From contig JAFVAQ010000020.1 of NCBI GenBank assembly GCA_017480495.1, positions 1 through 38,020 on the forward strand: DNA of 38,020 bases, written 5' to 3'. This DNA is from Eubacterium sp. (GTDB lineage: Bacteria; Bacillota; Clostridia; Lachnospirales; Lachnospiraceae). The notes below the pieces were generated by a model that made no database searches, was not told where the DNA came from, and saw only the letters and a program-made list of their open reading frames with translations. Of this stretch, positions 310 to 31,443 are shown piece after piece; the first letter of the stretch is position 1; every line of letters starts with the position of its first letter. The position numbers and the translations under genes are program-made.

Positions 310-2979
310 TTACTGTGTTACAAATGATATTCCGAAGGCCCCCGGTCCACAGCTTATAGCTACTACAGGACAGCTTTGCTGGAAGAATACTTTTTCGAAT
401 TTGAACCTCTTATCTATCTCAGCTTTTATCCAATCAAGCTCTTTTTTGCTAAGTCCTACATAATTGATAAATATAACAGTGCTTTCTATTTTATTTCCCT
501 TTAAGCATTTATCTATATAACGCCTCCACGCTCTCTCTTTGGCACCAAAGGTAAAACCAACTGTAGAGATTTTTCCCTCCTTCATAAAAGTAACTGGTCT
601 AAGCATAAGAGCTTTCATAAAACCAGCTCTTCCCTCACTGGCCTGCTTAGCACGCACCATATAATCCATGTTGTCTATCATAAAACTTGCTCTTATTCTT
701 CCATTTAGAGTATTTAGTCTTGTAATGATTTCATCGACCGGCATACCCGCCTCAGCCATACGACTTGCAAATATAGCCATCAGTCCCTGACCGCAGGATA
801 GGAATTTACTATCAAAAACAGTAACATTTTCAAAAGAGTTGGCAGCTTCTGTGGATATCATATAGGATGTACCTTCTATTTGCGCGGATACTGATATATG
901 AATAATGTTATTTGCATTTACGAGCTGCTCTGCAAAGAAGGTCTCGTAGTCTTCTACACTTGGAGGAACTGGAGAAGCTACATTTTCCTCATCCTCCATA
1001 TATTTGAGAAGACCGGCAGTATCAATCTCAGTTCCTTCTCGGAAGGTTCCTTCAATCGTTTTAACCTTATGATTAAGAACTGTGATATTGTACTTATCCA
1101 GTAATACCTGTGGAAGATCCGCAGTACTTTCTGTTGTGATAGCTATTCTTCTCTTCCTATGCCTATCACTTATCCATGTACTATCTGCTTCAACCTCGAT
1201 ACCCTCGCTGTCCATTATCTTAACGAGCGCTCTAGGAAGCTGTCTGAATACTTCGTTCTCGAGGTCATTTCCTGATACAGGCTTAACCAGATATCCATTA
1301 AAGCCAGTTAATGCATATAGAGCTCTATTTTCTTCTCCGGCATTTGCTGTAAGGATAACAATACTTGTTTCCTTATTCATACCACCAGACTGTTCTCTTA
1401 TGGCATGGAAACATTCTATACCATCCATCTCTGGCATCAAATGATCCATAAAGATAAGATTGTATTTTACATCAAGAGTCTTCTTCAGAGCTTCCGCTCC
1501 ACTCTTTACAGTATCTATCTGAATCTTTGTATCTCTCAGGAGCTTAGAAACAACCATAAGATTAGACTCATTATCATCTACAACCAAAATCTTTGCTTCC
1601 GGCGCTTCAAACTTCTGTTTATAATTTGTCCTATGAGCAAGCTTATGCTTCTTCTCATAGTTATACTCACCCAGCTCTTTGTCAGAAACCATCTTCTGCG
1701 GAATCTCAACTATAAAGGTAGAACCCTTTGTATATACGCTATTAACGGAAACCTTTCCGCCCATTAGGTCAACAAACTGTTTAACTATAGATAGTCCTAG
1801 TCCCGTACCTTCTATATGTTTATTACTGCTTTCATCAACACGCTTAAATGCGGTAAAGAGATATGGGATATCTTCCTTCTTGACACCCATGCCTGTATCT
1901 TCTACTGAATAGATCATTTTGCACATTCCATCCTCTGACTTCTCGCACTCTACGGATAGAACTACTGATCCTTCCTTAGTATATTTAATTGCATTATTAA
2001 GGAGATTGATTAGAACCTGCTTGATTCGAACCTCGTCACCCTTAAGCTCTTCAGGAATATCAGGCGCGACATTTATCCTAAAATCCAGATTCTTCTCCTG
2101 CGCACGTATCCATATCATTCCTACGATATCAGAAAGCATATTACTAGTATGATAATTCTCCAAAAGAATCTTCATATCGCCAGACTGGAACTTAGACATA
2201 TCAAGAATATCATTAATTGTATTCAGGAGCATTTTACCTGCTGCACGAATATTAACAGCATCCTCTGCTATCTCATCGCTGATATCCTCACGGAGAATCA
2301 TCTCGTTAAGTCCAATGATTGTGTTGATAGGTGTACGAATCTCGTGGCTCATACTCGAGAAGAATTTATTCTGAGATGCAACTAGTCCTTCTATCTCCTG
2401 CTTCTGCTTTTCTGTTATAGCATTCTGCGCCTCAAAGAAATCTATCTGAGTTCTCATAATAATAGCTATAGCACCACTAACAAGGATCAAGGTTACAAAA
2501 GCTATAAGGTATGGTTGAAGACCTTTGAAGGACAGAATTACATTTGGATAATAATAGGAAACAAGATAGCAAATAATGGCTACCATTTCTTGAAAAAGAA
2601 CAAATATCCACTTAAGATTTTTGTTATTCATCATGTTATATATAAAAAGTATGTTAAACAAAAACCAAAGCGGAGCATCTCCTAGGATTCCACCTGCTGT
2701 GAAAAACATTATAGGGAAAAATGAAAACAGTAGAAAGAACGACAATATGTTAGCTCCGACATCGACTTTATCTAGCTTGAAGGATATAAAACCTACTAAG
2801 GCAATAAAAACAAAACTAGCTAGGAAGAGCCAGGTATTAAGTACCATTCCGCATATTATAAATCGTGAAATAAGCGAGCCAAGAAGGATTCCATCCGTAA
2901 CAAGCATGTTGAATGCGAATCCTCTTTTTCTCATAGTTATTTCTTCATTTAAAAGATAGCCTTTCAGCTTTTCAAACAT
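310..2979 (-). CDS. Hybrid sensor histidine kinase fused to a DegV domain
   Basis: An 889-residue protein. Residues about 20-178 hold five or six membrane segments, followed by a short coiled linker. The HisKA phosphoacceptor is in FFSSMSHEIRTPIN (His212). The ATPase part shows the N box LLNNAIKY (about 326-333), DTGMG and GTGLGLSIVK (391-400). A receiver domain (about 462-585) has the acidic pair VVDDN, the phosphoacceptor Asp512 in IFMDHLMPEMDG, and Lys566 in YLVKPV. From about 610 to the end lies a complete DegV-like domain: ITTESTADLP, ISVSAQIEGTSY, VFDSKFLSCGQG and CGPGAFGISF near the C-terminus. DegV/FakB proteins bind fatty acids for FakA kinase and are normally free-standing at about 280 residues. 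What the domain does on a kinase is unknown; lipid sensing or lipid-gated output is inferred. It is the last gene of a three-gene signalling operon, 5 bp after the preceding kinase. The start is at 2979 behind gaggag. Confidence 0.92.
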   Translation of the reverse strand: MFEKLKGYLLNEEITMRKRGFAFNMLVTDGILLGSLISRFIICGMVLNTWLFLASFVFIALVGFISFKLDKVDVGANILSFFLLFSFFPIMFFTAGGILGDAPLWFLFNILFIYNMMNNKNLKWIFVLFQEMVAIICYLVSYYYPNVILSFKGLQPYLIAFVTLILVSGAIAIIMRTQIDFFEAQNAITEKQKQEIEGLVASQNKFFSSMSHEIRTPINTIIGLNEMILREDISDEIAEDAVNIRAAGKMLLNTINDILDMSKFQSGDMKILLENYHTSNMLSDIVGMIWIRAQEKNLDFRINVAPDIPEELKGDEVRIKQVLINLLNNAIKYTKEGSVVLSVECEKSEDGMCKMIYSVEDTGMGVKKEDIPYLFTAFKRVDESSNKHIEGTGLGLSIVKQFVDLMGGKVSVNSVYTKGSTFIVEIPQKMVSDKELGEYNYEKKHKLAHRTNYKQKFEAPEAKILVVDDNESNLMVVSKLLRDTKIQIDTVKSGAEALKKTLDVKYNLIFMDHLMPEMDGIECFHAIREQSGGMNKETSIVILTANAGEENRALYALTGFNGYLVKPVSGNDLENEVFRQLPRALVKIMDSEGIEVEADSTWISDRHRKRRIAITTESTADLPQVLLDKYNITVLNHKVKTIEGTFREGTEIDTAGLLKYMEDEENVASPVPPSVEDYETFFAEQLVNANNIIHISVSAQIEGTSYMISTEAANSFENVTVFDSKFLSCGQGLMAIFASRMAEAGMPVDEIITRLNTLNGRIRASFMIDNMDYMVRAKQASEGRAGFMKALMLRPVTFMKEGKISTVGFTFGAKERAWRRYIDKCLKGNKIESTVIFINYVGLSKKELDWIKAEIDKRFKFEKVFFQQSCPVVAISCGPGAFGISFVTQ

Positions 2980-2984
2980 ATATC

Positions 2985-5669
2985 CTACTCCTCTGTCTTT
3001 GGCTCAAATTCTAAAACCTCATCATCATCTGCCGGACCAAATTCCATCACTTCATCTTCACTAGATGCAGCAAACTCAAACACCTCATCATTATCAGAGG
3101 CTTCAAATTCCATTACTTCATCACTTTCCGGATCTGAATCAGGAAGCTCGACTTCGTCAGCTTTATTCTTACCATATGCCTCAAGTATTCCGTCTGTTAT
3201 CTTCTTATAATCATCAATAACTCTTGAATGGTTTTCATCTATATAATTCATATCAAAATCATGAGCCGCATGTTCGAGTTTCATAGCATCATCAGAAAGC
3301 TCTCCCGCTCCAATCATCTTGGAAGTGCTCTTTGCAGCATGAATAATTATCTCGTAATTCTTCATATCCTTATCATTGTAGAAGGCTCTTAGCTTCTTAC
3401 GTTTATCACTGGCCTCCTCAGCAAATTGAAGAATTAGTTCATCATAGAGATCTGTATCTCCACCGCAATACATAAGACCTGTTTCTATATCTATTCCAAG
3501 TCTAGCAAGTTTATCCTTGATACTATCTGAGGATTCTTCTATCTCAGCAGAAGCATCTGCACTATCAGTTTCACTCTTTTCAGTAGATTCATTTATAGTA
3601 TCCAGCTTCTCTTCAGATTCAAAAGAAATAAGATCAGCTGGAAGAACTCTCTTCATTGTTCTCTCAAGTTCTTCTATTTCAATTGGTTTACTTACAAAGC
3701 CATCAAAGCCTTCAGAAATAAACATCTGCTTAGCCGAACTCATAGCATTTGCAGTAAGCGCAACAATCGGAATTTCACGATTAAGTCCTTTTACGTCAGT
3801 TCGAATCTTCTTCATGGCTTCAACGCCATCCATGCCTGCCATCATGTGATCCATAAATATAATGTCATATTCATGATCTCGACACATTTCTAGAGACTCC
3901 GCTCCAGAGGTAGCTGTGCTAACCTCCATTCCATATTGTTTTAAGATTCCCTTTGCAACCACCAGATTCATAGGTTCATCATCCACAACAAGCGCATGAA
4001 CACCTTTTAGTCGAATAGTTGAATGGTCGGAAACATTTTCCACTAGACTGCTATTTAGAGCCGCCACAAATGGAAATACACAGAACGGCTTCTTTATCAC
4101 TCTAATCTTAGTTCCACCAGGAATTTCAATATCAGAATCTGATAGTATCATCACGACAACATTTTTCGCGAACTCATTTATTGTACCCTGATCTTTTTTG
4201 TATTCTTCCTCTCCCACAAGGAGGTGTGTTAACTCAATAGTTTTAGTTATCTTCTTCAGATTCTCGATATTTTCAACTCTATGAACCTCTAAACCAAGGC
4301 CACCACTCATAGTAACAGACTGATGTATGAAGAATTCTCTAACCATAGGGTTCTTGAAACCATATGTGCTGAGATAAGATCCAACTCTAACATTTTTTGC
4401 TTCATTTATAGAAGCGCAAGGTTCATATTCAACCACCTTCTGTGGAAGGCTGACTCTAACTGTTGTACCCTCATCCTTCTTACTAGTGATAGTCATAAAA
4501 CCACCTAGAAGAGATACAAAACCTGATACAATAGGTAACCCGAGTCCAAGACCACTTCCAGTACGTGTCCTACTAGAATCTGTCTGATAGAATCTCTCAT
4601 ATACCTTCTCCAGTTCTTCTTCCGTCATACCGATACCAGTATCAGAAACCTCGATACAGAGATTGACTCCGTAATCTTGCCTCTCTGAATGAAGCTTTAG
4701 ATACACGCCGCCCTCGGTTGTGTACTTGATTCCATTTGATACAAGAGCCTTGATTATCTTCTTGAGCTTCGTAACATCAGTATTCATTACTGCAGGTATA
4801 GTAGGATCTATATCTATTACAAGCTCTACTCCCTCCTTCTTCATATCGCGTATATCATTCATCAAATCATTCATCGCGGAGGATAGCATATAGTCCTCTA
4901 GATTGCTAACTATATTACCTCTATCTATTTCAGAGAAATCCAGAATATCTCCTATCTGTTCTGAGACTCTTCTTCCCGCCTGTCGAACAGCTTCTAGATT
5001 CTTTTTATTATCTTCATCTTTTTCTTTATCTATGCAAATGCCAGTAAGACCGATAATGGCATTTACAGGAGTTCTAATTTCATGAGATACATTTGCCAGG
5101 AAATCATTTAGGCGATTTGTGGACTCTGTCAGCTGATCAATCTCAACCTGAGAAGCAGCTTCGACCTCGTCCCATTTATTGATGATAGTTTTCAGGAAAT
5201 ATGCAAGCATAGTGATTACAGAATAATGCATAATTATTCTGCACATTAAAAGGATGTCGAACTTACCTCCATCCATAGCATATTTTGCAAGATCGTATGT
5301 CATAGATATGTAGTAGGTTATCTGACACAGAGTAATCAGAGGCTTAATCTCTGTCATGATGAAGAGCATCATGATTGCGGCCATAACAATAGCAAGATCA
5401 TAGGTACTTGTCATATGCACACCATAGATGAAATAATTTATCATCATGATGAATGCAATCACCCATAATCTCTGATTACTGGTAAATATTGATTTAATAT
5501 GTATACCCCAGCATATACCAACAAATGCACCTATCACAAAAAGTACCCATTTATCCCATCCAAGGAGAAATGTGATAACCACATGCATTATTGCGAAAAT
5601 GGTATAGCCCAAAAGCAGAACTAGATTACCAGTTCTGAACATATCATTTTTTTCTCTATTTGCCCCCAT
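2985..5669 (-). CDS. Hybrid sensor histidine kinase with receiver and HPt domains
   Basis: An 894-residue membrane kinase. About six membrane segments fill residues 13-165, with little extracytoplasmic sequence. The HisKA motif FLANVSHEIRTPVN carries His196; the ATPase motifs are SNGIKY, DTGIGM and GSGLGLGLPI (371-380). Residues about 425-545 resemble a degenerate receiver without a clear phosphoacceptor. The true receiver (about 556-675) has VVDDEP, Asp607 in IFMDHMMAGMDG and Lys661. An HPt domain follows with His777 in IIHAAKSTSKMIGA. The last 45 residues are very acidic and contain four near-copies of DEV(M/F/L)EF. This makes a complete His-Asp-His relay in one chain that could pass phosphate to a receiver of the neighbouring REC-GGDEF-REC protein. 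The gene is 15 bp downstream of that gene and is preceded by a GGGGGAC ribosome binding site. Confidence 0.92.
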   Translation of the reverse strand: MGANREKNDMFRTGNLVLLLGYTIFAIMHVVITFLLGWDKWVLFVIGAFVGICWGIHIKSIFTSNQRLWVIAFIMMINYFIYGVHMTSTYDLAIVMAAIMMLFIMTEIKPLITLCQITYYISMTYDLAKYAMDGGKFDILLMCRIIMHYSVITMLAYFLKTIINKWDEVEAASQVEIDQLTESTNRLNDFLANVSHEIRTPVNAIIGLTGICIDKEKDEDNKKNLEAVRQAGRRVSEQIGDILDFSEIDRGNIVSNLEDYMLSSAMNDLMNDIRDMKKEGVELVIDIDPTIPAVMNTDVTKLKKIIKALVSNGIKYTTEGGVYLKLHSERQDYGVNLCIEVSDTGIGMTEEELEKVYERFYQTDSSRTRTGSGLGLGLPIVSGFVSLLGGFMTITSKKDEGTTVRVSLPQKVVEYEPCASINEAKNVRVGSYLSTYGFKNPMVREFFIHQSVTMSGGLGLEVHRVENIENLKKITKTIELTHLLVGEEEYKKDQGTINEFAKNVVVMILSDSDIEIPGGTKIRVIKKPFCVFPFVAALNSSLVENVSDHSTIRLKGVHALVVDDEPMNLVVAKGILKQYGMEVSTATSGAESLEMCRDHEYDIIFMDHMMAGMDGVEAMKKIRTDVKGLNREIPIVALTANAMSSAKQMFISEGFDGFVSKPIEIEELERTMKRVLPADLISFESEEKLDTINESTEKSETDSADASAEIEESSDSIKDKLARLGIDIETGLMYCGGDTDLYDELILQFAEEASDKRKKLRAFYNDKDMKNYEIIIHAAKSTSKMIGAGELSDDAMKLEHAAHDFDMNYIDENHSRVIDDYKKITDGILEAYGKNKADEVELPDSDPESDEVMEFEASDNDEVFEFAASSEDEVMEFGPADDDEVLEFEPKTEE

Positions 5670-5684: not shown

Positions 5685-7463
5685 TTATGTTCTGTCATTT
5701 TTGACTGGCTTATGATATTTCTTCCTAAGTGTCACGAGCTCAAGTATACGATTCACTCTGGCCTTCAGAAGCTCTGGTGCAAAAGGCTTCCATATGAAGT
5801 CCAACGCCCCCTTTTCCATACCTTCTGTTTCAAGACCATCATTTTCTACTCCTGTAAGTAGGATGACAGGAATGGAAGCAAGATCACTACCCATTTCTTT
5901 CATCTTATCCATTACTTCCAGCCCACTCATACCTTCCATCTTAATATCCAGAAGTAGGAGATCCGGAAGCTTTTCAGCCACGCTTATTTCCTTTAGGAAT
6001 TCCTCACCTGAGCTATATGTATGAACAGTAAGTCCTTTATGAATGAGAACTCCACTAGCTACATCGAGATTTACATCATCATCATCGACAATAACTATTT
6101 CCGCCTCATTATCTTCGATTCCATTTCCCGGATTATTTCTGACATATTCTGAATCATAATCAATATCAAGTCTTGGATTATCACTTTCATCCCAAGTCTT
6201 TATTATCCCCTCTGCAACGACCGGTACAAACTTCTCTCTAATATCAGTAAGAAGAACAAAATACTGATTATATCTGCTTCGTGTCAGCATATCGGATTTT
6301 CTTAGCGACTCTCTTATATGATTTCCGAACTCATCACAGGCATCCTGATAATCCTCATACGACATATCATCTGGCTTGCCGAGAGTGAACAGGACCTTAC
6401 TACAATTTATGTTGTTACGAATAAAATATCTCGTAGCAAATCTAAACACATGGGAAAATGCCTCCATGTCGAGCTGAAGAGCTACATTTGTGATATTTCT
6501 TTCTCCAAGTATATCGGATATACTTTTAATATCCATTATTGTATCTGTTTCTTCATCTTTAAGAAGATCTGAGGAATATAAAGAATATCCGTGCTTACCA
6601 TTCTTCTTAACTATGTATAGACATTTATCCGCAAGCTTCAGAAGTGATGTATAATCATTTCCGTGTTTCGGAACTTCAATCGCTCCGATTGACGTTCCAA
6701 GAGGAATATTCATATCCTCTCCCATCAGTTCCTTCGCAGTACTTACAAGCTTCTCATTCAGTTGCTTTGTGATATCAGCAACTTCTGACTCTTCCTGAAC
6801 CCCTAAGCAAAATGCAGCAAATTCATCTCCGCCTAGTCTTCCCACCTTGCTTCCTTGAGGAACTGCTTCTTTTATAAGATTCGCAAAAGCTATAAGCACC
6901 TTGTCTCCCATCTCATGGCCGTATAGGTCATTTACCAGCTTGAAGGAATCCAGGTCGATCATCATTAGGCAACCTGTACTCTTGGTACACATTTTTGAAA
7001 ATTCAACACTTGTCGCACCCTTGTTCAGAAGTCCTGTCAGTTTATCTGTAGTAGCTTCACTTTTCAGACTCTGCATCTCCGTCTGCATTGAGATAACATT
7101 GTCAATACGACGAAGCAATACTTCCGGATTAAATGGCTTACGGATATAGTCAGAAACTCCCATCTCGAAGCCCTTAGTCTCACTTCCTGTATTCTCGTCT
7201 GCTGTCAGGAATATAACAGGAGTCTCTGGATGGTCATGCTCCTTCTCATAATCTCTCAGTCGTCTTAATGTTTCAAATCCATCCATTTCTGGCATCTTGA
7301 TATCCAGAAGAATAAGATCCGGTGCACCTTTTTCTGATATATAATCAAGAAGAGCCCTGCCCGATTTAAGCGCAGTGACTCTCATATTATTCTTACTCAG
7401 TATATTCCCCGCCATCTTAAGATTAGATGTATCATCATCTACAACCATTATCCATTTTGCCAT
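5685..7463 (-). CDS. REC-GGDEF-degenerate GGDEF-REC response regulator (putative diguanylate cyclase)
   Basis: A 592-residue soluble protein. Receiver 1 (residues 1-125) has MVVDDD, phosphoacceptor Asp54 in LILLDIKMPEMDG and Lys109. The GGDEF domain (about 135-298) keeps DKLTGLLN, the metal-binding region MMIDLDSFKLVND and an intact GGDEF at 211-215, so c-di-GMP synthesis is expected; no RxxD inhibitory site is seen just upstream. Residues about 320-425 look like a second GGDEF fold in which the signature is replaced by SRYNQYF, after LRKSDML. Receiver 2 (about 455-580) has VIVDDDD, Asp506 in LLLLDIKMEGMSG and Lys559. First gene of the signalling operon. The start is supported by GGAGGGG nine bases upstream. 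The two downstream hybrid kinases are the obvious phosphodonors, but that pairing is inferred from position only. Confidence 0.92.
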   Translation of the reverse strand: MAKWIMVVDDDTSNLKMAGNILSKNNMRVTALKSGRALLDYISEKGAPDLILLDIKMPEMDGFETLRRLRDYEKEHDHPETPVIFLTADENTGSETKGFEMGVSDYIRKPFNPEVLLRRIDNVISMQTEMQSLKSEATTDKLTGLLNKGATSVEFSKMCTKSTGCLMMIDLDSFKLVNDLYGHEMGDKVLIAFANLIKEAVPQGSKVGRLGGDEFAAFCLGVQEESEVADITKQLNEKLVSTAKELMGEDMNIPLGTSIGAIEVPKHGNDYTSLLKLADKCLYIVKKNGKHGYSLYSSDLLKDEETDTIMDIKSISDILGERNITNVALQLDMEAFSHVFRFATRYFIRNNINCSKVLFTLGKPDDMSYEDYQDACDEFGNHIRESLRKSDMLTRSRYNQYFVLLTDIREKFVPVVAEGIIKTWDESDNPRLDIDYDSEYVRNNPGNGIEDNEAEIVIVDDDDVNLDVASGVLIHKGLTVHTYSSGEEFLKEISVAEKLPDLLLLDIKMEGMSGLEVMDKMKEMGSDLASIPVILLTGVENDGLETEGMEKGALDFIWKPFAPELLKARVNRILELVTLRKKYHKPVKNDRT

Positions 7464-16917: not shown

Positions 16918-18831
16918 ATGGAAATAGACAAGAAAATAGTAGTACTATGCACTTCGAGAATATACGAGCCTCAGATACACGGTTTTATTGTAAGACTAAA
17001 CGAACTGCTTATCTCCAGAGGCTACAATCTATTTGTGTTTTCAATCAATTCTGACATTTACTGGGAAGAGGATCGTCAAGCTACTGAAAAGTACGTCTTT
17101 GACCTTATTCCATATGACTTTGTTAAGTGCATTATCATAATGGACGAGAAAATCAAGAGTCATAAGATTGCCAATAAAATCATCGCAAAATCAAATGAGA
17201 AGAATATTCCTGTCGTAATAGCCGATGGATATTATGACAATACTTCGACTATCAACTTCGACTACGAGCAAGGTTTTGAGCAGGTAGTTCGTCACGTCAT
17301 TGAGTATCATCACGTTAAAAAACCACATATGATGGCCGGTCAGCCTGATAATGATTTCTCTAATAAGAGAATCGAAGTCTTCAAGAAGGTGCTCGCCGAA
17401 AATGGAATACCTTATGACGATAGCATGATAAGCTTCGGTTATTTCTGGGCAGACCCATGTCGTAAAGCTGTCGAGGAGATACTAAGTAGAGAGGAACTCC
17501 CTGATGCAATCATTTGCGCAAATGATGTAATGGCAATAACCGTTTCAGAAATGCTTATAGAGTCAGGATATAAAGTTCCTGAAGATGTAATAGTCACCGG
17601 CTTTGATGGATACGACGGAATATACTTCACTTCTCCTAAGATTACTACTGCTTCCTGCGATATCATTTTGCTTGCAGAAGCAACAGCTGAAGCAGCCTTT
17701 AAGGTAATGGGAAACAATGAGGAGCAGCATCACAAAATAGTTCCCGAGTTCGTATCTAATGAGTCCTGCGGATGTCATGAATATACTGCGCATCCAAAGC
17801 TACTTAGGGACTGGTTCAGAGAGAGCTTCTCTAGACATAATGATGATAACCGTGTTCTTCAACAGATCACTTCTTCTATGCAGACAAGTATGACTCCAGG
17901 AGAAATGGCTTCAAAGATGGAAAGCTATAAAACTGAGCATGTTCTATGCGTAATAGATAGAAGGTGTTTCGATGAGGATAATAATTATTTCACTGATGAG
18001 GTAGATAGTAATCAGGTCAAGGATTTTGTAATCATATATGACGCGGATTATCCTGATAAATATAAGAAGGATACATTTACTATTCCTGAATCACAAATTG
18101 GATACACGGAAGACGTTCTGACACCTGCCATACGTGACCGAATGTTCGAGCTTCTAGAAAGTGGCTACCCACTCATCTTCAATTCTCTTGATTTCATGAA
18201 TAGGCCATTTGGATTTATTTGCTACCACTTTAACGATTATCTGATATCGAACTATTCAAATATAGTTAATGTAACAAATGCTATCAGTATAGGAGTCGGT
18301 GGATACGTTAATATCCAGTATCAGAGAACTCTGCTCGAAAGAATGGATGAAATGTACCGTCACGATTCACTGACAGGACTATTCAATAGAATCGGTTTCC
18401 TGAATATCTTCAAGAGAACTATCAAGAAGCCTGAGCACCGCGGTAAGCCAATAACAGTCATCATGTCCGACCTCGATGGACTAAAATATATAAACGATAG
18501 ATTTGGTCATGCGGATGGAGACAATGCAATTTACAGAGTTGCAAATGCACTCCAAACTTCAGTTCCTGAATCAAGCCTATCCGCCAGATTCGGTGGTGAC
18601 GAAGTCTTCTCAGTTATATTTGGAGAATGCGATCCAGATAAGATTATTAAAAGAATCGATAAGAACCTTGAGGATTATAATATAGACTCAGGTAAAGCAT
18701 ATGACGTTTCGACCAGCTGCGGTTATATAACCATGACACTGGACGACACCTTCGATCTAACTCAAGCCATCAAGGATGCTGATGAAAAGATGTATGCAGT
18801 TAAAAATAGTAAGACTTATCCGAGAGGGTAA
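16918..18831 (+). CDS. LacI-type periplasmic-binding-like sensor fused to a GGDEF domain
   Basis: A 637-residue cytoplasmic protein. Residues about 5-280 form a LacI/PBP1-type sugar-binding fold without the DNA-binding helix-turn-helix; characteristic stretches are IPVVIADGYYDNTSTINFDY, AIICANDVMAITVSEML and VIVTGFDGYDG. Residues about 290-460 are of unknown fold. The C-terminal region (about 475-632) is a GGDEF domain: HDSLTGLFNRIGFLNIF, VIMSDLDGLKYINDRFGH and RFGGDEVFSVIF, so the signature at 559-563 reads GGDEV. The substitution is in the fifth, non-catalytic position, so activity is possible. No signal peptide or membrane segment is seen. It is the only plus-strand gene and is divergent from the epimerase operon, suggesting that a sugar ligand tunes c-di-GMP (inference). 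Confidence 0.9.
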   Translation: MEIDKKIVVLCTSRIYEPQIHGFIVRLNELLISRGYNLFVFSINSDIYWEEDRQATEKYVFDLIPYDFVKCIIIMDEKIKSHKIANKIIAKSNEKNIPVVIADGYYDNTSTINFDYEQGFEQVVRHVIEYHHVKKPHMMAGQPDNDFSNKRIEVFKKVLAENGIPYDDSMISFGYFWADPCRKAVEEILSREELPDAIICANDVMAITVSEMLIESGYKVPEDVIVTGFDGYDGIYFTSPKITTASCDIILLAEATAEAAFKVMGNNEEQHHKIVPEFVSNESCGCHEYTAHPKLLRDWFRESFSRHNDDNRVLQQITSSMQTSMTPGEMASKMESYKTEHVLCVIDRRCFDEDNNYFTDEVDSNQVKDFVIIYDADYPDKYKKDTFTIPESQIGYTEDVLTPAIRDRMFELLESGYPLIFNSLDFMNRPFGFICYHFNDYLISNYSNIVNVTNAISIGVGGYVNIQYQRTLLERMDEMYRHDSLTGLFNRIGFLNIFKRTIKKPEHRGKPITVIMSDLDGLKYINDRFGHADGDNAIYRVANALQTSVPESSLSARFGGDEVFSVIFGECDPDKIIKRIDKNLEDYNIDSGKAYDVSTSCGYITMTLDDTFDLTQAIKDADEKMYAVKNSKTYPRG

Positions 18832-21862: not shown

Positions 21863-22309
21863 TTACTTACCAGTAGATACACCATCTACAGATTTAATTG
21901 TTACAGCACCATCTTTAACATCAGCAACAATAGCCTTTCCATCTTGAGATGTAAAATTCAATGAAGTAATACCGGTTACTGTAAAATTTTTCATCCTTGA
22001 CGTTGCAGTAGGCGAATTATACTCTATGTCGCCTGATGTAACTATAGTTGGTGCAACAATTGGATTAATATAGTCTTTGATGTCAGCGATACTAGCTGGT
22101 CCATTAGTCGTTGTACTCTTTGCATATTCTTCAGTAGCTTTAGCTTGTGTTGCAGTAAGTATTGAGTGAACCTCTTCCTCATACTGTCCCTGTCTAGCCT
22201 TATCGATGTATCCAAGAAGTGCTGGAACAAGGATTGCAGCTAAGATAGCTAAAATAACGAGTACCACGATAAGTTCTACAAGTGTAAAACCTTTATTATT
22301 CTTCTTCAT
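21863..22309 (-). CDS. Type IV major prepilin-like protein
   Basis: A 148-residue protein with a canonical class III signal: MKKNNKG then FTLVELIVVLVILAILAA. Cleavage is expected after Gly7, giving mature Phe1 and Glu5. The conserved hydrophobic alpha-1 helix continues into IDKARQGQYEEEVHSI. The C-terminal half is Thr/Ser-rich and has no cysteines, so no disulfide-bounded D-region. It has its own strong promoter (22393-22421) and terminator (21821-21855), separate from the assembly operon that ends at 22698, which fits a highly expressed major pilin. The ribosome binding site AAGGAGG is ideal. Confidence 0.92.
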   Translation of the reverse strand: MKKNNKGFTLVELIVVLVILAILAAILVPALLGYIDKARQGQYEEEVHSILTATQAKATEEYAKSTTTNGPASIADIKDYINPIVAPTIVTSGDIEYNSPTATSRMKNFTVTGITSLNFTSQDGKAIVADVKDGAVTIKSVDGVSTGK

Positions 22310-22697
22310 AAGTCAAATCCTCCTTAATATAAATTCTTCATTTGTTTGATCTTCGATCTATCAAACAACTCTCTCATGAATAAGTTAACTTGATTTTAAC
22401 AAGCGAATTCTCATTTTGCAAGCACTTATGTAAACCATCCCGTTAAATCCACTAAACGCACAATAATTCACAAACTAATTTGTGCAACCTGTATAATCCG
22501 CACCCCTTCTCCTACAAATTCATTCAATTTCGGTCATAATCTTTTATTTTCATCCATGATATAGAGTTATTTTTTTAATAAAATCGTAACATTTAAGGTG
22601 TAAAAGTCGTCAAAAAATGGCTATTTCACACACTTTTCACAGTTTTCACATCCTTAGTTCACAGAAATCCAAGTCTTACAGAGTTCTAATCCAATGC
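22310..22697. other. 388-bp intergenic region between pilB and the pilin gene
   Basis: No gene is supported. It contains the pilin promoter, a 5'-leader inverted repeat gtttgat (22344-22350) with atcaaac (22360-22366), and the 16-bp inverted repeat cacaaa-ctaa-tttgtg (22469-22484) about 50 bp upstream of the pilin -35. Short GTGAAAA-type repeats lie near 22622-22650. No clear terminator is seen after pilB. Confidence 0.6.
22393..22421 (-). promoter_or_regulatory. Promoter of the major prepilin gene
   Basis: On the minus strand TTGCAA (22416-22421) and TAAAAT (22393-22398) are spaced by 17 bp, with an extended -10 (TGTTAAAAT). Transcription would start near 22386, giving a leader of about 77 nt that includes the inverted repeat at 22344-22366. 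Confidence 0.7.
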
Positions 22698-24383
22698 TTA
22701 ATCATAATACGCAACCTTAACGAGCTCTTCTACGGTTGTAAGTCCCTGTTCGATCAGTTCCATACAGCTCTCTTTCAGAGTAAGCATGCCAAGTTCCTGA
22801 CGTGCATATGTCTTGATATCTTCTGCAGACTCGTTGTCAGATATCATTTTACGAACTGCCTTATCGATTGGAAGTATCTCATGAATAGATATACGGCCTC
22901 TATAACCGGTTCCATTACATTTCTTACATCCAACCTTATGCATAACTCTTGGAAGCGGTTTTCCAACCACCCTCTGTTCTTCTGCTGTCATCTCTCCCCA
23001 AGTACCACAATCTGGGCAAACCTTACGAACAAGTCTCTGAGCTATGATGCCAACAAGTGAGTTGGCCAGCATATACGGCTCAATACCCATATCTATAAGT
23101 CGTGTAACTGATGATGCAGCATCGTTCGTATGTAATGTAGAAAGAACCAGGTGACCAGTTATAGCTGCTCTAACGGATATTGATGCAGTCTCTGCATCAC
23201 GTGTCTCACCAAGCATGATTATATCTGGATCCTGACGAAGCAGCGCCCTTAGTCCAACTTCAAATGTTAGACCAGCAGTATTATTAACCTGCATCTGATT
23301 TAACTTCGGAAGATTTTTCTCTACCGGATCCTCTATAGTTGATATGTTCACCGCTCTCTGAGACAGCTCAGAGAGAATCATATATAGAGTTGTAGACTTA
23401 CCAGAACCAGTAGGGCCTGTAACATAAACTATTCCATTTGGAGACTGAAGCATCTGGCTAACTATCTGATAATTACGATCATTCATACCAAAAGTTCCAC
23501 TATGATCAATTGTAGCCGCAGATGCTAGAAGCCTAAGAACCGCCTTCTCACCAAATACAGTAGGAATAACGGATACTCTGACATTTATAGGTGTACCCTC
23601 TACATTAGTCTTAAAGTGACCATCCTGAGGAATACGACGTTCAGCTATATCAAGGTCACCAATGATCTTGACACGTGCTATCAGAGAATTATGGATATTC
23701 TTTGGTAGAGTCATGAAATCAACTATAACACCATCCATACGCATACGAACAGATGTATGCTTCTCAAATGGTTCTATATGAATATCGGAAACATTTGAAT
23801 TGTAAGCACGTACAACAAGAGAATTCAGCAAATTGATAATAGGTGTATCATCATCAGCATCTTCTACATTTACTTCGATGATATCATCTTCAGCTAGACT
23901 TGACTTAGCAGCTTTATCAGCAGCCTTCTTAGCAGATACTTCTGAATAATAATACTGAATAGCATTATCAAGAGGCTGCTTCTCTGTCAGTTCTATCTTA
24001 AGATCGGCACCTGTTACCTGTCGTATATCTTCCAAACCATAGAAGTTAAGAGGATCATTTGTCAGAAGATAAAGTACTCCATCCTCTATTCTATACGCCA
24101 TCATTCCATACTTTTCAGCAAGTGGCTGTGGTATAGTTTCAACCGCATTTATATCAACAGCCAAGTCGGCTATATTTACCACATCATACTGAAGTCTTCG
24201 ACCAAGTGCTTCCAGCATCTGTTTTTCAGTAATGATATTCATCTCTATCAGAGCGCCACCAAGTCGAACACCTTCATGTGTCTTAGTATACTCAAGAGCT
24301 GCTCCTATATCATCGTCCGTAACATAACCGAATTCCTTCAGGACATCTCCTATACGTATATTTTTGTTTGATCTCATCTCCAT
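22698..24383 (-). CDS. pilB: Type IV pilus assembly ATPase PilB/GspE
   Basis: A 561-residue hexameric secretion ATPase that powers pilus extension from the cytoplasmic face. An N-terminal MshEN-type region covers about 8-145 (IGDVLKEFGYVTDDDIGAAL). The core has Walker A GPTGSGKS (323-330), the Asp box STIEDPVE (348-355), Walker B DPDIIMLGETRD (385-396) and the His box TGHLVLSTLHTND (409-421). A zinc-binding tetracysteine is intact (Cys456, Cys459, Cys486, Cys489; CPDC and CKKC), which marks PilB/GspE extension motors rather than PilT. It is the last gene of the pilC-pilMN-pilO-pilB unit. Confidence 0.95.
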   Translation of the reverse strand: MEMRSNKNIRIGDVLKEFGYVTDDDIGAALEYTKTHEGVRLGGALIEMNIITEKQMLEALGRRLQYDVVNIADLAVDINAVETIPQPLAEKYGMMAYRIEDGVLYLLTNDPLNFYGLEDIRQVTGADLKIELTEKQPLDNAIQYYYSEVSAKKAADKAAKSSLAEDDIIEVNVEDADDDTPIINLLNSLVVRAYNSNVSDIHIEPFEKHTSVRMRMDGVIVDFMTLPKNIHNSLIARVKIIGDLDIAERRIPQDGHFKTNVEGTPINVRVSVIPTVFGEKAVLRLLASAATIDHSGTFGMNDRNYQIVSQMLQSPNGIVYVTGPTGSGKSTTLYMILSELSQRAVNISTIEDPVEKNLPKLNQMQVNNTAGLTFEVGLRALLRQDPDIIMLGETRDAETASISVRAAITGHLVLSTLHTNDAASSVTRLIDMGIEPYMLANSLVGIIAQRLVRKVCPDCGTWGEMTAEEQRVVGKPLPRVMHKVGCKKCNGTGYRGRISIHEILPIDKAVRKMISDNESAEDIKTYARQELGMLTLKESCMELIEQGLTTVEELVKVAYYD

Positions 24384-24403
24384 ATGCTAGTAACCCCTAT
24401 TAT

Positions 24404-25288
24404 TTATTCTTCAATTGCATCGCCAGAAGATGCAACATCTGATGTATCACACATAAATATCTCAAGCTTTACTGTGAGAGATTTTTTAGTAACAACCTCT
24501 ACAACTGCCCCATCAATCTCTTCAGTAGAAACCCCTGTAGTATCAGCCTCAACTGACTCAGCTACATTTTCCTCAGAGCCTCTTCTAACGAGATTCCTAT
24601 ACTCTCCCCAGGAGTAACCAACCATGAGGATACGTTTATCACTATTTATGATGTCATCGATAAAGCTTTCAAGATCATCCAGTTCACCACCGACAGTCAT
24701 TGTAACAGGAACAGCATAAATATCCGTATTCGGTCTGTAGCTGCCTTCCTCTTCTCCGAAGACTTCAGCATTTATCTCTTCCGGAGTTTTGGTAGAAGCT
24801 GATTCACCTTCTCCACCAAGTGACGGATCATTTTCATCAGCCTCTGTCTCCATAGACTCAGCCGAAGATTCATAGTCTGCCATCTGCTGAAGCTGAATAT
24901 TATAAAGCTGAGAATTCTTATAAGCAAGCCTATCCGATGGTGAAGATGGCATATTGAAATTAAGCTCATAGATGTCAAGATTATTATCAGTAGCCATTTC
25001 AGTCATCATTCTATCAACCTCTGAACTGCTGAGTATCTGGAAGAATTCATCCTTTTTCTCAGCAATACGAGATTCATAATCATCAGCCTGTATCTGAATA
25101 GTTCCAACATTCAGAAGTTTAAGCTCATTTATCTTCTTTTTATTCTCTTCCTTCTCTATCTTGTCGCTAATGCTGTTATACGCCCTGATCTGTGGAAGTA
25201 TACCCCAATATCCTATAGCAACTATAATAACTCCTATAAACATTCCAACGAGGAGCTTCTTGTCGCATTCTGTCATAGTTGATTTCAT
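24404..25288 (-). CDS. PilO/GspM-like inner-membrane assembly protein
   Basis: A 294-residue bitopic protein: a short cytoplasmic N-terminus, one membrane helix (about 12-30, LLVGMFIGVIIVAIGYWGIL), a coiled region (about 34-80) and an extracytoplasmic domain. Position right after the PilM-PilN fusion and before pilB, plus this topology, identify it as the PilO-like partner. Two acidic Ser/Glu-rich insertions (about 130-170 and 240-265) and an acidic C-terminal tail are unusual for PilO. It is expected to form a periplasm-side heterodimer with the PilN part of the preceding protein. Confidence 0.75.
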   Translation of the reverse strand: MKSTMTECDKKLLVGMFIGVIIVAIGYWGILPQIRAYNSISDKIEKEENKKKINELKLLNVGTIQIQADDYESRIAEKKDEFFQILSSSEVDRMMTEMATDNNLDIYELNFNMPSSPSDRLAYKNSQLYNIQLQQMADYESSAESMETEADENDPSLGGEGESASTKTPEEINAEVFGEEEGSYRPNTDIYAVPVTMTVGGELDDLESFIDDIINSDKRILMVGYSWGEYRNLVRRGSEENVAESVEADTTGVSTEEIDGAVVEVVTKKSLTVKLEIFMCDTSDVASSGDAIEE

Positions 25289-25303
25289 ATGAGCCCCTCC
25301 CTT

Positions 25304-26773
25304 CTACTCATCTCTGCCTACTGATTCGGCAAGTGTACAAGTAACATGTATGTCATATAGTTTATCAGTATCACTGTAGGTATATCCTGTATGATCAACT
25401 GTCATAAAGATCTTTTCCTCAAGTAGCTTATCGATATACTTGTAAATATCATTTACATCGTCTGCCTTTGCGGAAAATGTAACTCTTCCCTCCTCAGCAT
25501 CAAAGCTTAATATCTCTATCTTCGCATATCCTCTTGCAGTCTCTTCGATAGTTTCTATAACACTATCACTGCATACCGGATAAGAATCAATAGTTTCAAC
25601 TACAGTATTTATTGAGTTGTACTTTGCAAGCATTGAGTCTCTCTTATCAACTGCTGCGTCATACTCAGCACTCTGCATTACAACAGCCGGACTGCTATTA
25701 TAACTCTTCGCTTCATCGTATTTTGATTGCTGGATAAGTCTAAATGTTATTGCAATTCCCAGACCGATAAGCATTGCCGCAAGAGTTGCCACAACAGCTA
25801 TGATATACCGTTTAAGCTGAGGATTCATCTTCTCTTCCTCATCATCCTTCACGCTGAAGAAGGTAAGGAAGTTGCTCGCAGAACCCTGATCAAAAAGACC
25901 ACTGACTGCGAAAAGGGCTGTTTGTGATTCATGTAAAAGCTGTGGATTCGTACTTAGTCCTGTATTAACAAGCTCAGCCGAAGAATCTACACCATGATCA
26001 CGAATAACCTGATTGTATGCATTTAGATTATTATTATCAGTTCCTGCAACAAATATTCTTTCAACTGGCGACTGAATCTTCTCAGTACTCATGAACTGTT
26101 CCAGCTGATTCAGCGATCTACCCAGGTCATCAAGGTACTCCGGAGTTCCCGGTTCATTGAAGCATCTGACTGAATTGTAGTAGCTGAATGTACCATCTAC
26201 GAAAAGAACATTTGATACAAGATTTCCATTTATTATCTGCAGGATAAATGTTTTAGCCAGCTTTGTAAGTGTGTCCTGAGCATAACCAATAATACTTCCC
26301 TCTCCAGAGATAATACCCTTAAGGGATATTCCCATAGATGCGAAAACCTGCATGAATTCACGAAGCTGCTCCTTTGGAGCCATTTCTGCGTATAGCAGCT
26401 TCACCTTGGTTTTTTTGTTCACTCCGATAGAGGTATATGCCAACGTATTCTCTTCATCTTCACGCTGCATATCTGCGAATTCCCTCTTGATGAATTCAAG
26501 AGTTTTCTTTCCACTCAGATTTGGAACCTCGAGTTTTTTACCGGCTATCTTGTTGCTGTTTACAACCAGATACACATCCTTCTTAGGGATGTTATTCGCC
26601 TCCCAAAATCTCTTGATGTGAGCCCCGAGAGCATCTGCATCCATTATGATACCATTGATAATGCTGCCTTCTGGAGCCATGGTAGTGAAGACCTGTTTAA
26701 GGCTTCCTTTCTTACCTCTGGTACCAACGGCAATCTGCACTATTTGGTTTGAAAAATAAACACTTACACTCAT
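25304..26773 (-). CDS. PilM-PilN fusion protein (GspL-like)
   Basis: A 489-residue protein. Residues 1-300 resemble PilM, an actin-like cytoplasmic scaffold: MSVSVYFSNQIVQIAVGTRG, then VYLVVNSNKIAGKKLEVPNL and ILQIINGNLVSNVLFVDGTF. One membrane helix spans about 323-345 (YIIAVVATLAAMLIGLGIAI). Residues 346-489 are a PilN-like extracytoplasmic domain with a heptad-like start and a ferredoxin-like end. In most type IV pilus systems PilM and PilN are separate; here the fused layout imitates GspL of type II secretion. It overlaps neither neighbour and sits between pilC and the PilO-like gene with gaps of about 15 bp. Confidence 0.82.
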   Translation of the reverse strand: MSVSVYFSNQIVQIAVGTRGKKGSLKQVFTTMAPEGSIINGIIMDADALGAHIKRFWEANNIPKKDVYLVVNSNKIAGKKLEVPNLSGKKTLEFIKREFADMQREDEENTLAYTSIGVNKKTKVKLLYAEMAPKEQLREFMQVFASMGISLKGIISGEGSIIGYAQDTLTKLAKTFILQIINGNLVSNVLFVDGTFSYYNSVRCFNEPGTPEYLDDLGRSLNQLEQFMSTEKIQSPVERIFVAGTDNNNLNAYNQVIRDHGVDSSAELVNTGLSTNPQLLHESQTALFAVSGLFDQGSASNFLTFFSVKDDEEEKMNPQLKRYIIAVVATLAAMLIGLGIAITFRLIQQSKYDEAKSYNSSPAVVMQSAEYDAAVDKRDSMLAKYNSINTVVETIDSYPVCSDSVIETIEETARGYAKIEILSFDAEEGRVTFSAKADDVNDIYKYIDKLLEEKIFMTVDHTGYTYSDTDKLYDIHVTCTLAESVGRDE

Positions 26774-26787
26774 TCTTTTATCCTTTT

Positions 26788-27996
26788 CTATTTGCCTTGA
26801 TTTGCAATTGATTGATAAGAACCGTATATTGGTTGAATTACCGCTATCATTATAAATCCAACTACTGCAGCCATGACAACAATCATTATAGGTTCAACCA
26901 TTGCCACAAGCTTTTCAATAGCTATCTCACTATCGTAGTCCATCTGATCTGCTATGGAAACAAGCATATGATCCAGTGCACCCGTCTCTTCACCAACTGA
27001 AACAGATGAGGAAAGCTTCTTAACAAAACCATCTATACCAGCAAGTCCCTCGGATAGAGGTTTACCTGCTCTGATTTCAGCTATCATATCATCAAACTGA
27101 CTCTCTATATATGTATTACCGATTGTGGTTTTCGCGATCTGCAGACATGTGACGATCGGTATACCTGCAGCATACATACTTGCCAGAGTTCTTGAGAATC
27201 TGGCGGTGTAAATAATCTTTCTCAGTCCACCGATTTTCGGCATATGTATCTCCATCTTATCAACCATAAGCTTGATTGGAGGCAGAGACATAAGAACCTT
27301 GAATACCATATATAGGATTACTGCTGCAAATATAAGCAAGTACCACTTATGTGATATAAAATCACTAATCGCCATAAGTATCCTTGTTGCAACAGGAAGT
27401 GAATCCATTTGTGAAAACAGGGAATCGAATTGAGGAAGGACAAATCCCATAAGAACTATTACTACTATAACTATCAAAACTCCCAGAATCTTAGGATATG
27501 TAGTAGAACTCTTGATCTTTTGCTGCAGTCTGTATTCTTTACTATAATACTCAGCCATATTTCCAGCGGTCTGATCCATATTACCACTTGTCTCAGCACT
27601 TCGAATCATATTGACGAAGAGAGCTGGAAAGACTCCACCCTGCTCATCCATAGCATCTGAAAGCGTCATACCGGAACGAACCTGCTTCAAGATATCAGCA
27701 TAGATCTTCCTCTCGCCTTCTGCTATTGATTCATCTTCAGAAATAATTCTGAGCGCACGAACAAGAGTAACACCTGCTCCAAGAAGCTTACTAAGATTTC
27801 TGGCAAAGTCTGATACTCTGTCGAACTTAAGTTTCTTGTGAATAGCTTTACTCTTCTGAACCTCTTTGGAATCTACAAGAAGCATTCCATCATTTTTCAG
27901 TTTGCTGTGAAGCTCAGCCTCATCATTTGCCTTCATTTCTCCGGTGATAATTCTACCATCCGAATTCTGAGCTCTGTACCTATAGCTTACTGCCAT
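26788..27996 (-). CDS. pilC: Type IV pilus inner-membrane platform protein PilC/GspF
   Basis: A 402-residue polytopic protein with the duplicated GspF domain: helical domain 1 (about 55-165, FARNLSKLLGAGVTLVRAL), membrane helices near 169-188 and 218-236, helical domain 2 (about 260-365, FSRTLASMYAAGIPIVTCL) and a last membrane helix near 368-392 (VEPIMIVVMAAVVGFIMIAV). The paired LGAGV/YAAGIP motifs and VSVGEETG are diagnostic. It forms the platform on which PilB acts. First gene behind the internal promoter at 28057-28085. Confidence 0.95.
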   Translation of the reverse strand: MAVSYRYRAQNSDGRIITGEMKANDEAELHSKLKNDGMLLVDSKEVQKSKAIHKKLKFDRVSDFARNLSKLLGAGVTLVRALRIISEDESIAEGERKIYADILKQVRSGMTLSDAMDEQGGVFPALFVNMIRSAETSGNMDQTAGNMAEYYSKEYRLQQKIKSSTTYPKILGVLIVIVVIVLMGFVLPQFDSLFSQMDSLPVATRILMAISDFISHKWYLLIFAAVILYMVFKVLMSLPPIKLMVDKMEIHMPKIGGLRKIIYTARFSRTLASMYAAGIPIVTCLQIAKTTIGNTYIESQFDDMIAEIRAGKPLSEGLAGIDGFVKKLSSSVSVGEETGALDHMLVSIADQMDYDSEIAIEKLVAMVEPIMIVVMAAVVGFIMIAVIQPIYGSYQSIANQGK

Positions 27997-28056
27997 ACTT
28001 TAACTCCATTCCCACATTTTTTGATTTGTTAAAATAGATACTATAAGCCACTCTCT

Positions 28057-28085
28057 ATTCTAACCATATTTGTAATTTATGTCAA
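28057..28085 (-). promoter_or_regulatory. Internal promoter for pilC-pilMN-pilO-pilB
   Basis: On the minus strand consensus TTGACA (28080-28085) and TAGAAT (28057-28062) are spaced by 17 bp. It lies in the 128-bp gap between the peptidase-like gene and pilC. The predicted leader before pilC is about 55 nt. Confidence 0.75.
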
Positions 28086-28124
28086 CCAGTATACTCAAAT
28101 CAAATATCCGGTCATTTAAACATC

Positions 28125-28538
28125 TTAATTTCTAATCCTGTCATAAAGTATATATCCCGCTGTCACAATGACGCCTGATAAAAGGAAAACAACCAGGGCC
28201 CATACATTAAGTCCAATTAGCAATGTACATAGAACAGCTGAAATGCCACCAATCATTTCAACTATAGTGTACCTGACTGAGATCTTCTCTCCGCAATATC
28301 TGCATCTGCCCTTTAGGCTGATCCAGGAAATAATCGGAATCAGATCTTTCGTCATCAGCTCATGGTGACAGCTGGTGCACATCGACTTGCCATTTGTGAA
28401 TTGAATCTTTCGTGGCAGCCTGTATATAACAACATTTAGAAATGAAAAAATGCTTGCACCTATTGCAAAGAAAATAATCTCTATCAATACCCTGGCCACT
28501 ATAATTGTAGCCTCGAGGATTATATATTCCTTACTCAT
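28125..28538 (-). CDS. Prepilin-peptidase-like N-terminal domain protein, protease half absent
   Basis: A 137-residue protein. It matches the N-terminal part of PilD-type prepilin peptidases: a first membrane helix with FFAIGASIFSFLNVVIYRLP, then the zinc-binding pairs CTSC and CRYC around IPIISWISLKGRCRYCGEKI, then SVRYTIVEMIGG. It ends at VTAGYILYDRIRN, before the A24 aspartate-protease region with its GxGD motif. The 128 bp up to pilC do not encode the missing part. The start at 28538 gives MSKEYI and has GGAG seven bases upstream; it overlaps the previous gene by 8 bp, indicating translational coupling. Either a free-standing regulatory or methyltransferase-like domain, or a degenerate peptidase. 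Confidence 0.75.
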   Translation of the reverse strand: MSKEYIILEATIIVARVLIEIIFFAIGASIFSFLNVVIYRLPRKIQFTNGKSMCTSCHHELMTKDLIPIISWISLKGRCRYCGEKISVRYTIVEMIGGISAVLCTLLIGLNVWALVVFLLSGVIVTAGYILYDRIRN

Positions 28539-28974
28539 TATCCGTCTCCGATAACGAATAAACATTTAGTATGTAGTCGACATCCCAATGAACCTGGTCA
28601 TCGTGCTTTGTGTAGTAAACTACGTATTTGCCCTGGCGGAATGTCATTCCAGTCATATCACGACTTGCCGTATTATATGCAGTAATGGTATAGCTTCCTT
28701 CAGTTGTATATATTGCTCCTGCCAGCTCCTTTACACCATCTGCAACACCATTTTTCTTTGTTGGATCATATATGGTTTTACCCTTGCCATAGAGCTCAAT
28801 GTCCGCAGACCGAAGTGCCATCTGGACATTTTTGGCATCACGAAGAGCAGCCTTTGCATCTACCTTTATCTTAAAAAATGCAAAAACTGCCGCTAAAATG
28901 ATAAGTATTCCGACTGCAATCAGAATAATCTTAAGAAATTTTCCGACATTTAACCTTGACTGTCCCTGTCCCAT
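28531..28974 (-). CDS. Pilin-shaped single-pass protein without prepilin cleavage motif
   Basis: A 147-residue protein of unknown function when started at ATG 28974 (GGGG six bases upstream); a GTG at 28986 would add four residues. A single hydrophobic helix (about 15-35, LKIILIAVGILIILAAVFAF) is followed by DAKAALRDAKNVQMALRSAD, which resembles the alpha-1 helix of pilins, and then a small globular domain with several beta-like strands. The expected Gly cleavage site and Glu at +5 are absent. It lies in the minor-pilin section and overlaps the peptidase-like gene by 8 bp. A retained minor pilin or membrane-anchored chaperone is possible. Confidence 0.7.
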   Translation of the reverse strand: MGQGQSRLNVGKFLKIILIAVGILIILAAVFAFFKIKVDAKAALRDAKNVQMALRSADIELYGKGKTIYDPTKKNGVADGVKELAGAIYTTEGSYTITAYNTASRDMTGMTFRQGKYVVYYTKHDDQVHWDVDYILNVYSLSETDNE

Positions 28975-28988
28975 ATACTTCCCCACTT
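28963..28988. repeat. 26-bp direct repeat, copy 1
   Basis: This copy covers the ribosome binding site and first codons of the pilin-shaped gene. It matches 30645-30670 at 25 of 26 positions (difference c/a at the eighth base) in the same orientation. The two copies flank the ATPase/nuclease gene exactly: copy 1 ends 4 bases before its stop codon at 28992. Confidence 0.85.
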
Positions 28989-28991
28989 ACT

Positions 28992-30563: not shown

Positions 30564-30644
30564 TTATTGTTCCTCTCTCGAGCATATTATAACTATAACT
30601 CTAATGAAGCATTATACATTCTCATAACTTTGAACGTTTTATAC

Positions 30645-30670
30645 TCCCTGTACCATATACTTCCCCACTT
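30645..30670. repeat. 26-bp direct repeat, copy 2
   Basis: Same orientation and 25 of 26 identity to 28963-28988. It lies 22 bases after the stop codon of the upstream prepilin-like gene, where a ribosome binding site for the next pilus gene would be expected. It looks like the displaced original start region of the pilin-shaped gene. Confidence 0.85.
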
Positions 30671-30692
30671 TTAATCATACTTATGATAATAA

Positions 30693-31394: not shown

Positions 31395-31443
31395 AGCTTC
31401 ACCAATGTCTATATAACATAAATAATACATATACAAAATTAAA

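Follow-up and report, generated by a model that had tools for sequence, protein, structure and literature searches.

A FakB-derived DegV domain as a candidate regulatory part of a two-kinase c-di-GMP phosphorelay in Lachnospiraceae and related Clostridia

Introduction

The DegV family (PF02645; solved structures 4x9x, 5uto and 2dt8) is a large protein family so far known as fatty-acid carriers, among which the FakB proteins are free-standing and serve FakA. The same fold forms the C-terminal end of HK2-DegV, a hybrid histidine kinase encoded in a 38,020-nt stretch of DNA from a Eubacterium sp. (Lachnospiraceae), which was analysed at its full length and is called the window here. Unlike FakB, this DegV domain is fused to a kinase, and the DegV domains of such systems (relay DegVs) lack Arg205 and His270, mostly lack Arg173 (pocket residues are numbered as in FakB1), and have a lid helix that is not hydrophobic. 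From a purely computational analysis (frames, profile searches, alignments, trees and structure models), we lean towards the reading that the FakB-derived domain, cut loose from FakA, is a regulatory and probably ligand-sensing part of a cyclic dimeric guanosine monophosphate (c-di-GMP) phosphorelay, in which HK2-DegV is the second of two hybrid kinases.

The kinase HK1, encoded next to HK2-DegV, finds its best matches in the models of BarA and TorS (267.6 and 253.9 bits), with which it shares the order of transmembrane region, histidine kinase, receiver and histidine phosphotransfer domain (TM-HK-REC-Hpt), but these scores lie far under the respective cut-offs (890 and 676.5). Unlike the BarA/TorS-type kinases, the present system has hybrid kinases in tandem, one Hpt in the operon, and a DegV domain on one of the kinases. 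RpfG, the partner of RpfC, is a REC-HD-GYP regulator. RpfC itself is reported to be a membrane hybrid kinase responding to the fatty acid diffusible signal factor (DSF), which is sensed at a 22-aa N-terminal region (PMC5391125). Set beside RpfC/RpfG, HK1 has the TM-HK-REC-Hpt order, and REC-HD-GYP regulators occur in some relatives (L034, L167) but HD-GYP is absent from the regulator in the window; here a FakB-type fold is carried by the second kinase of the operon. Among the regulators of dihydroxyacetone kinase, DhaQ acts on a transcription factor, in contrast to the phosphorelay considered here; judging by the titles of PDB entries, DhaQ/DhaK-DhaR represents the same fold class turned regulator. 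SaeRS, reported to be inhibited by intracellular fatty acids, offers a functional parallel.

No description of DegV as a relay part (with a histidine kinase, hybrid kinase, receiver, phosphorelay or c-di-GMP) was found in the open-access literature, judged mainly by titles and abstract openings and with most subscription journals outside the coverage; this agrees with the first-pass annotation of this DNA, which knew of no such system. In NCBIfam, the DegV domain model was the only one above its cut-off among the best 25 of 139 matches, none of which is a curated model covering the fused architecture. The module, a conserved two-kinase phosphorelay whose FakB-derived domain is uncoupled from FakA, is apparently undescribed so far.

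Results

HK2-DegV is an uninterrupted and recurrent fusion

The coding strand of HK2-DegV is the minus strand, the plus-strand translation of 310..2979 being full of stops. Its stop-free frame runs through a membrane region, HisKA, HATPase, receiver and DegV, which bears out the uninterrupted sensor-to-DegV frame that had been proposed. The features are as follows (pLDDT, predicted local distance difference test).

310..2979, minus strand: HK2-DegV, 889-aa hybrid histidine kinase ending in a DegV domain (frame, Pfam)
2425..2979, minus strand: N-terminal membrane region, residues 1-185 (crude hydropathy scan, identity)
2179..2373, minus strand: HisKA, residues 203-267, phosphoacceptor His212 (Pfam, 5.5e-15)
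1693..2040, minus strand: HATPase_c, residues 314-429 (Pfam, 1.6e-26)
1249..1590, minus strand: receiver (Response_reg), residues 464-577, Asp512 (Pfam, 1.2e-21)
1156..1239, minus strand: linker, residues 581-608 (REC-DegV structure model, pLDDT <50 at 597-607)
316..1149, minus strand: DegV domain, residues 611-888 (Pfam, 6.5e-42, profile positions 1-279 of 280)

A complete DegV domain follows the receiver, both being matched by Pfam, and the NCBIfam DegV domain TIGR00762 scored 156.4 bits against a cut-off of 99.7. The claim that all DegV hallmarks are present holds for the motif strings quoted at the time and for Ser9, Asp117, Gly126, Pro189, Gly196 and Gly272, whereas the FakA-coupling residues of a carboxylate carrier are gone. 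For conservation, species genomes were scanned for loci encoding a relative, and the best 80 of 524 were used. His212 is kept in 79 of the 80 (one gap), the N, D and G box residues of the HATPase in 78-80, and Asp512, Thr544 and Lys566 of the receiver in 80/80 each; HK2 has intact the residues by which a hybrid kinase is recognized. The membrane region, with ~5-7 hydrophobic segments within residues 1 to ~180 by the crude scan, is the most variable domain (median identity to the window 0.23 in 79 relatives). Because the REC-DegV structure model consists of two good domains joined by a loose linker (predicted template modelling score 0.63, linker pLDDT <50), the modelled DegV looks tethered to the HK2 receiver and not locked onto it.

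A frameshift or misassembly fusing two genes, of which the first-pass annotation had warned, could be suspected from the location of the gene, whose end lies only 309 bases from the window start at contig position 1. The fusion recurs, however: DegV and kinase sequence share one open reading frame (ORF) in 111/111 fusion loci fetched (L002-L112; the window is one of them, and some genomes appear twice), including L042, where an ORF split separates the N-terminal part of the kinase from the rest, and L023, which ends at a contig end. The family sample (299 genomes, nearly one per genus and the window's own genome included, searched with a DegV profile built from fusions) yielded 58 frames of at least 700 aa in 45 genomes, and HK2-DegV is under purifying selection (omega 0.06-0.11). 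Given the recurrence across loci and family genomes, an artefactual join was rejected, and we regard its probability as practically negligible. Synonymous divergence between L085 and window 310-2979 is patchy (membrane region 0.008, kinase 0.917, DegV 0.294), resembling what a mosaic gene formed by recombination or a mixed metagenome-assembled genome (MAG) would show.

Frames of at least 741 aa running through DegV were found in 33 of 60 genomes of the same genus and in 0/38 other genomes of the order, among the genomes listed. In samples of the class and phylum the profile built from fusions was used as well. At E <= 1e-55, 20 of 391 genomes in the class sample matched, nine of them with frames of at least 700 aa, six in the window's family and three in one family of another order. 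The corresponding phylum sample at E <= 1e-60 gave 13 matching genomes of 398, three with frames of at least 700 aa and all in the window's family; at these two cut-offs, more diverged fusions may be missed. The frame and genome counts of the genus/order, class, phylum and family samples, as well as counts of 4-nt overlaps, were taken by eye from tables. Taxa named among the fusion loci include Lachnospiraceae, Ruminococcaceae, Oscillospiraceae, Saccharofermentans and others, often of rumen or gut origin. Five loci probably come from isolates (Lachnospiraceae bacterium YSB2008, G41 and V9D3004; Ruminococcaceae bacterium YAD3003 and AB4001), since their record titles lack "MAG".

HK2-DegV belongs to a conserved phosphorelay operon

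HK2-DegV closes a row of three tightly packed, co-directional genes, in which it follows a response regulator and HK1; the HK1 stop lies 5 nt before the HK2-DegV start.

2985..5669, minus strand: HK1, 894-aa hybrid kinase with a receiver and, at the C-terminus, an Hpt (Pfam; TM-HK-REC-Hpt order)
3264..3440, minus strand: Hpt domain of HK1, residues 744-802, His777 intact (Pfam, 22.1 bits, below the cut-off of 24.6)
5685..7463, minus strand: response regulator REC-GGDEF-x-REC, 592 aa, GGDEF motif intact (GGDEF, 118.3 bits)

HK1 lies directly upstream of HK2-DegV on the same strand in 74 of the 77 loci (out of 80) that have room upstream, and the response regulator comes next in 60. The operon thus encodes an Hpt with a phosphorylatable histidine, His777 and Lys780 being kept in 74/74 HK1, and in the relatives L218 and L219 the Hpt match exceeds the Pfam cut-off. 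Asp607 of the HK1 receiver is likewise kept in 74/74 and His196 in 70/74, the remaining four being gaps. The simplest reading, though not the only one, is that both kinases share one Hpt. Upstream of the operon stands an additional hybrid kinase with dCache, whose Hpt match is below threshold (L047:1265-3928) and whose cluster spans 7 loci, and in one genome a chemoreceptor-like gene with a methyl-accepting chemotaxis protein signalling domain and HAMP (L166:1980-3320) lies immediately upstream of HK1.

The GGDEF residues are kept in 55 of the 60 regulators, the other five being gaps. Scanning of four relatives found two REC-GGDEF-REC-HD-GYP, one REC-GGDEF-REC and one REC-HD-GYP regulator; HD-GYP regulators were seen in L034 and L167, among others, and those of L054 and L021 extend past the second receiver into HD-GYP. 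By length (n=60), 33 regulators match the HD-GYP form (~780-800 aa), 19 are of ~580-620 aa, like that in the window, and 8 of other sizes. Based on this domain make-up and these lengths, the common output of the operon is predicted to be synthesis, and often also breakdown, of c-di-GMP. Searches of the window's genome (66% complete) gave 20 GGDEF matches and no PilZ match. The window regulator (5685-7463) stops after its second receiver, and by eye the stretch between GGDEF and REC resembles a worn second GGDEF.

Hpt and DegV change places within the relay

Other genera show that the position of the two smaller domains is not fixed. In L149/L164 and L217, Hpt lies behind DegV on the DegV kinase and the adjoining HK1 ends before Hpt; the same layout was indicated by BLAST for L222-L224, and frames of 1115-1166 aa occur ten times in the family sample. 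In L220, it is the N-terminal part of HK2 that forms DegV (residues 14-284, with HisKA at 506-571), HK1 again ends before Hpt, and a separate Hpt gene of 123 aa is found in the operon. DegV is a separate gene in L218 and L219, its start overlapping the end of HK1, with no HK2 within the fetched stretch and, in L218, a REC-GGDEF gene following it; in L216 a separate DegV gene comes after HK2 and could be a fusion split by sequencing error. L168 was rejected as a case of a moved Hpt: Pfam matched no Hpt in its HK1 and a separate REC-Hpt gene is adjacent, yet BLAST aligns HK1 through the Hpt region (P0002 residue 838). The architecture survey therefore places DegV at either end of HK2, before Hpt, or free-standing beside HK1, and because the placement varies while the set persists, DegV is on balance a portable relay part in its own right, as far as sequence comparison can tell.

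This mobility bears on the proposal of new chemistry, in which a novel enzyme acting as relay output would have the remodelled pocket as its active site. New polar residues are common where the old ones were (Q173 in 92/138 and N270 in 116/138 relay DegVs), as such chemistry would lead one to expect. However, positions 173 and 62 differ between subclades, and a DegV placed before Hpt in one chain fits a part working within the relay better than an end output; we regard a new enzyme as improbable.

The pocket has lost its FakA-serving residues

Pocket residues were compared between a relay set of 138 DegV rows and 52 FakB-type controls. The 111 fusion loci had given 95 distinct rows after removal of identical rows and those of <260 aa; in the wider set, L213, L215 and L210 were removed as duplicates of L216, L220 and L221, while L030/L192 (identical) and L079/L146 (at distance zero) are both still counted. 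The controls, which comprise 30 loci of top-scoring matches, L001, three solved proteins and 11 plus 7 further rows, are biased to typical DegVs. In the window, the five FakB positions are occupied as follows.

970..972, minus strand: Pro670 at FakB1 Thr62 (alignment)
874..876, minus strand: Glu702 at FakB1 Ser95 (alignment-sensitive; Gly in the MAFFT alignment, never Ser)
643..645, minus strand: Gln779 at FakB1 Arg173 (alignment)
547..549, minus strand: Phe811 at FakB1 Arg205 (alignment)
352..354, minus strand: Ser876 at FakB1 His270 (alignment)

The window protein has thereby lost the lipid-binding Ser/Thr and His/Arg positions (T62P, S95E, R173Q, R205F, H270S), a loss that the first-pass annotation had named as fatal to its proposal. 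Across the relay set, Arg205 and His270 are each kept in 1/138, Arg173 in 23/138 (lost in 115) and T/S62 in 70/138, against 52/52 FakB-type controls in every case. Ser95, kept in 52/52 controls, was counted in 57/138 relay DegVs by profile and 36/138 by MAFFT, so this alignment-dependent position was excluded as a basis for claims; Ser171 of FakB1 was left out of the comparison of the carboxylate network, represented by Thr62, Ser95 and His270, being Gly in 50/52 controls. None of the five FakB residues is retained in 61 relay DegVs, one in 43, two in 14, three in 20 and more in 0. The smaller set of 95 rows, 62 of which keep none, is biased to the window lineage, and the claim of family-wide loss is for this reason limited to R205 and H270. 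At position 205, the first alignment gave G in 95/95 and the refined one F in 73/95, with Arg in neither.

These losses weigh heavily against the earlier suggestion of a DegV output that is controlled by receiver phosphorylation and in which the domain loads a fatty acid and delivers it to FakA. The DegV fold, compared with PDB structures via VIA-align, is complete and FakA is encoded in the genome, as this role would need. However, Arg205, His270 and mostly Arg173 are missing from the relay set, and the lid helix is no longer hydrophobic; two reports describe an R173A variant as inactive in a kinase assay and R205 as a contact to FakA or the membrane (PMC8892158, PMC9136124). FakB-like carriage is thus very improbable for the relay DegVs. 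The named tunnel positions (just five, all named by one paper) are still hydrophobic.

An altered ligand site appears to be a better description of these sequences than simple decay, since R205 and H270 are lost family-wide while T/S62 (70/138) and R173 (23/138) are partly kept. Decay of an idle domain is further disfavoured by the purifying selection noted above and by new near-invariant residues specific to the fusions (T32, G36, Y52, F73, F108 and W211). In trees made by a quick method with SH-like approximate likelihood ratio support only, and with the relay rows thinned beforehand, relay DegVs form a single clade. Seven lineages stand at its unresolved base, with S/T62 in six, S95 in five, R/K173 in five and N270 in all seven. 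Because these lineages mostly keep S/T62, S95 and R/K173 yet have N270, we infer from the alignment that the hand-over to FakA was lost before the ligand pocket.

This pattern also bears on whether DegV is merely an empty, rigid adaptor that binds no ligand and holds HK2 to HK1, Hpt or the regulator. The six fusion-specific residues could equally form a protein-docking face. Against this, the named tunnel positions stay hydrophobic, and most basal lineages keep S/T62, S95 and R/K173, which a mere adaptor would not need. On the window branch the head-group positions are altered as well (P, E, Q, S); a receptor with a shifting ligand would show this pattern, which leads us to prefer a sensor; the adaptor is a rather unlikely but serious competitor.

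Discussion

The module is firm as anatomy and likely as regulation. For the sensing part, we infer that DegV senses, and what it senses, from its pocket and its place in the relay. HK1 and HK2 would be membrane-bound and most likely partner each other; each would autophosphorylate its histidine and pass the phosphate to its own receiver aspartate. The shared Hpt, on HK1 in the window, would take phosphate from these receivers to those of the response regulator whose gene opens the operon, and this regulator would make, and in many relatives also degrade, c-di-GMP. DegV, flexibly linked behind the HK2 receiver, may use the former FakB pocket to bind a small cytosolic ligand that probably bears an acyl chain, and its liganded or empty state would alter the phosphate flow via the HK2 receiver or the shared Hpt. 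Of the initial suggestion that DegV reports fatty-acid status to the relay, reporting to the relay is still the best reading, whereas the FakB-like carrier role has fallen away.

Several observations speak against this sensing relay. The polar residues by which the carboxylate of a fatty acid is held are gone from the window lineage, whose pocket may therefore not accommodate an ordinary fatty acid, and the possible docking face would serve an adaptor as well. Rule-breaking members exist, L148 keeping R173 and H270 and L149 having R at 205. As for the operon, HK1 is not adjacent upstream in 3/77 loci (L028, L042, L055), and a bare receiver gene instead of HK1 precedes the fusion in L165; a second Hpt-bearing kinase is found near some loci (the dCache kinase beside 7 loci; L224). 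HD-GYP is missing from the window regulator, and L165 and L169 have just a bare receiver as regulator, which means that the output is not c-di-GMP in every case.

Beyond the window, we tentatively propose a wider picture, in which a cytosolic lipid-sensing phosphorelay of Lachnospiraceae and related gut Clostridia uses the FakA-freed carrier domain as a swappable sensor (in trans, at either end of HK2, or before Hpt) with a ligand specificity diversifying by lineage, and feeds an internal acyl-type ligand into c-di-GMP; it would be a functional parallel of separate origin to the proteobacterial DSF/Rpf system. If true, DegV would gain a signalling role, and DegV proteins without FakA-serving residues would be accounted for. 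Such a relay would also give a genetic handle on the sensing of internal lipids and the setting of c-di-GMP in rumen and gut Clostridia, and loss of R205 and H270 beside an HK1 gene would become a rule for splitting "DegV family" annotations into carriers and relay parts.

Neighbouring genes

A type IV pilus-like cluster occupies window 21863-31436 on the minus strand, with the following Pfam matches.

21863-22309, minus strand: pilin-like N_methyl protein
22698-24383, minus strand: PilB-type T2SSE with MshEN domain
26788-27996, minus strand: T2SSF
28125-28565, minus strand: prepilin peptidase N-domain
30693-31436, minus strand: pilin-like N_methyl protein, just below cut-off

MshEN domains can bind c-di-GMP, and the cluster is therefore a possible target of the relay. 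Within it lies an AAA-ATPase_like plus PDDEXK_9 gene (28992-30563, minus strand), and upstream of it, near the window end, a protein of 1753 aa with no Pfam match is encoded (32742-38003, minus strand). A periplasmic-binding-protein-like domain fused to GGDEF (637 aa) is encoded at 16918-18831 on the plus strand.
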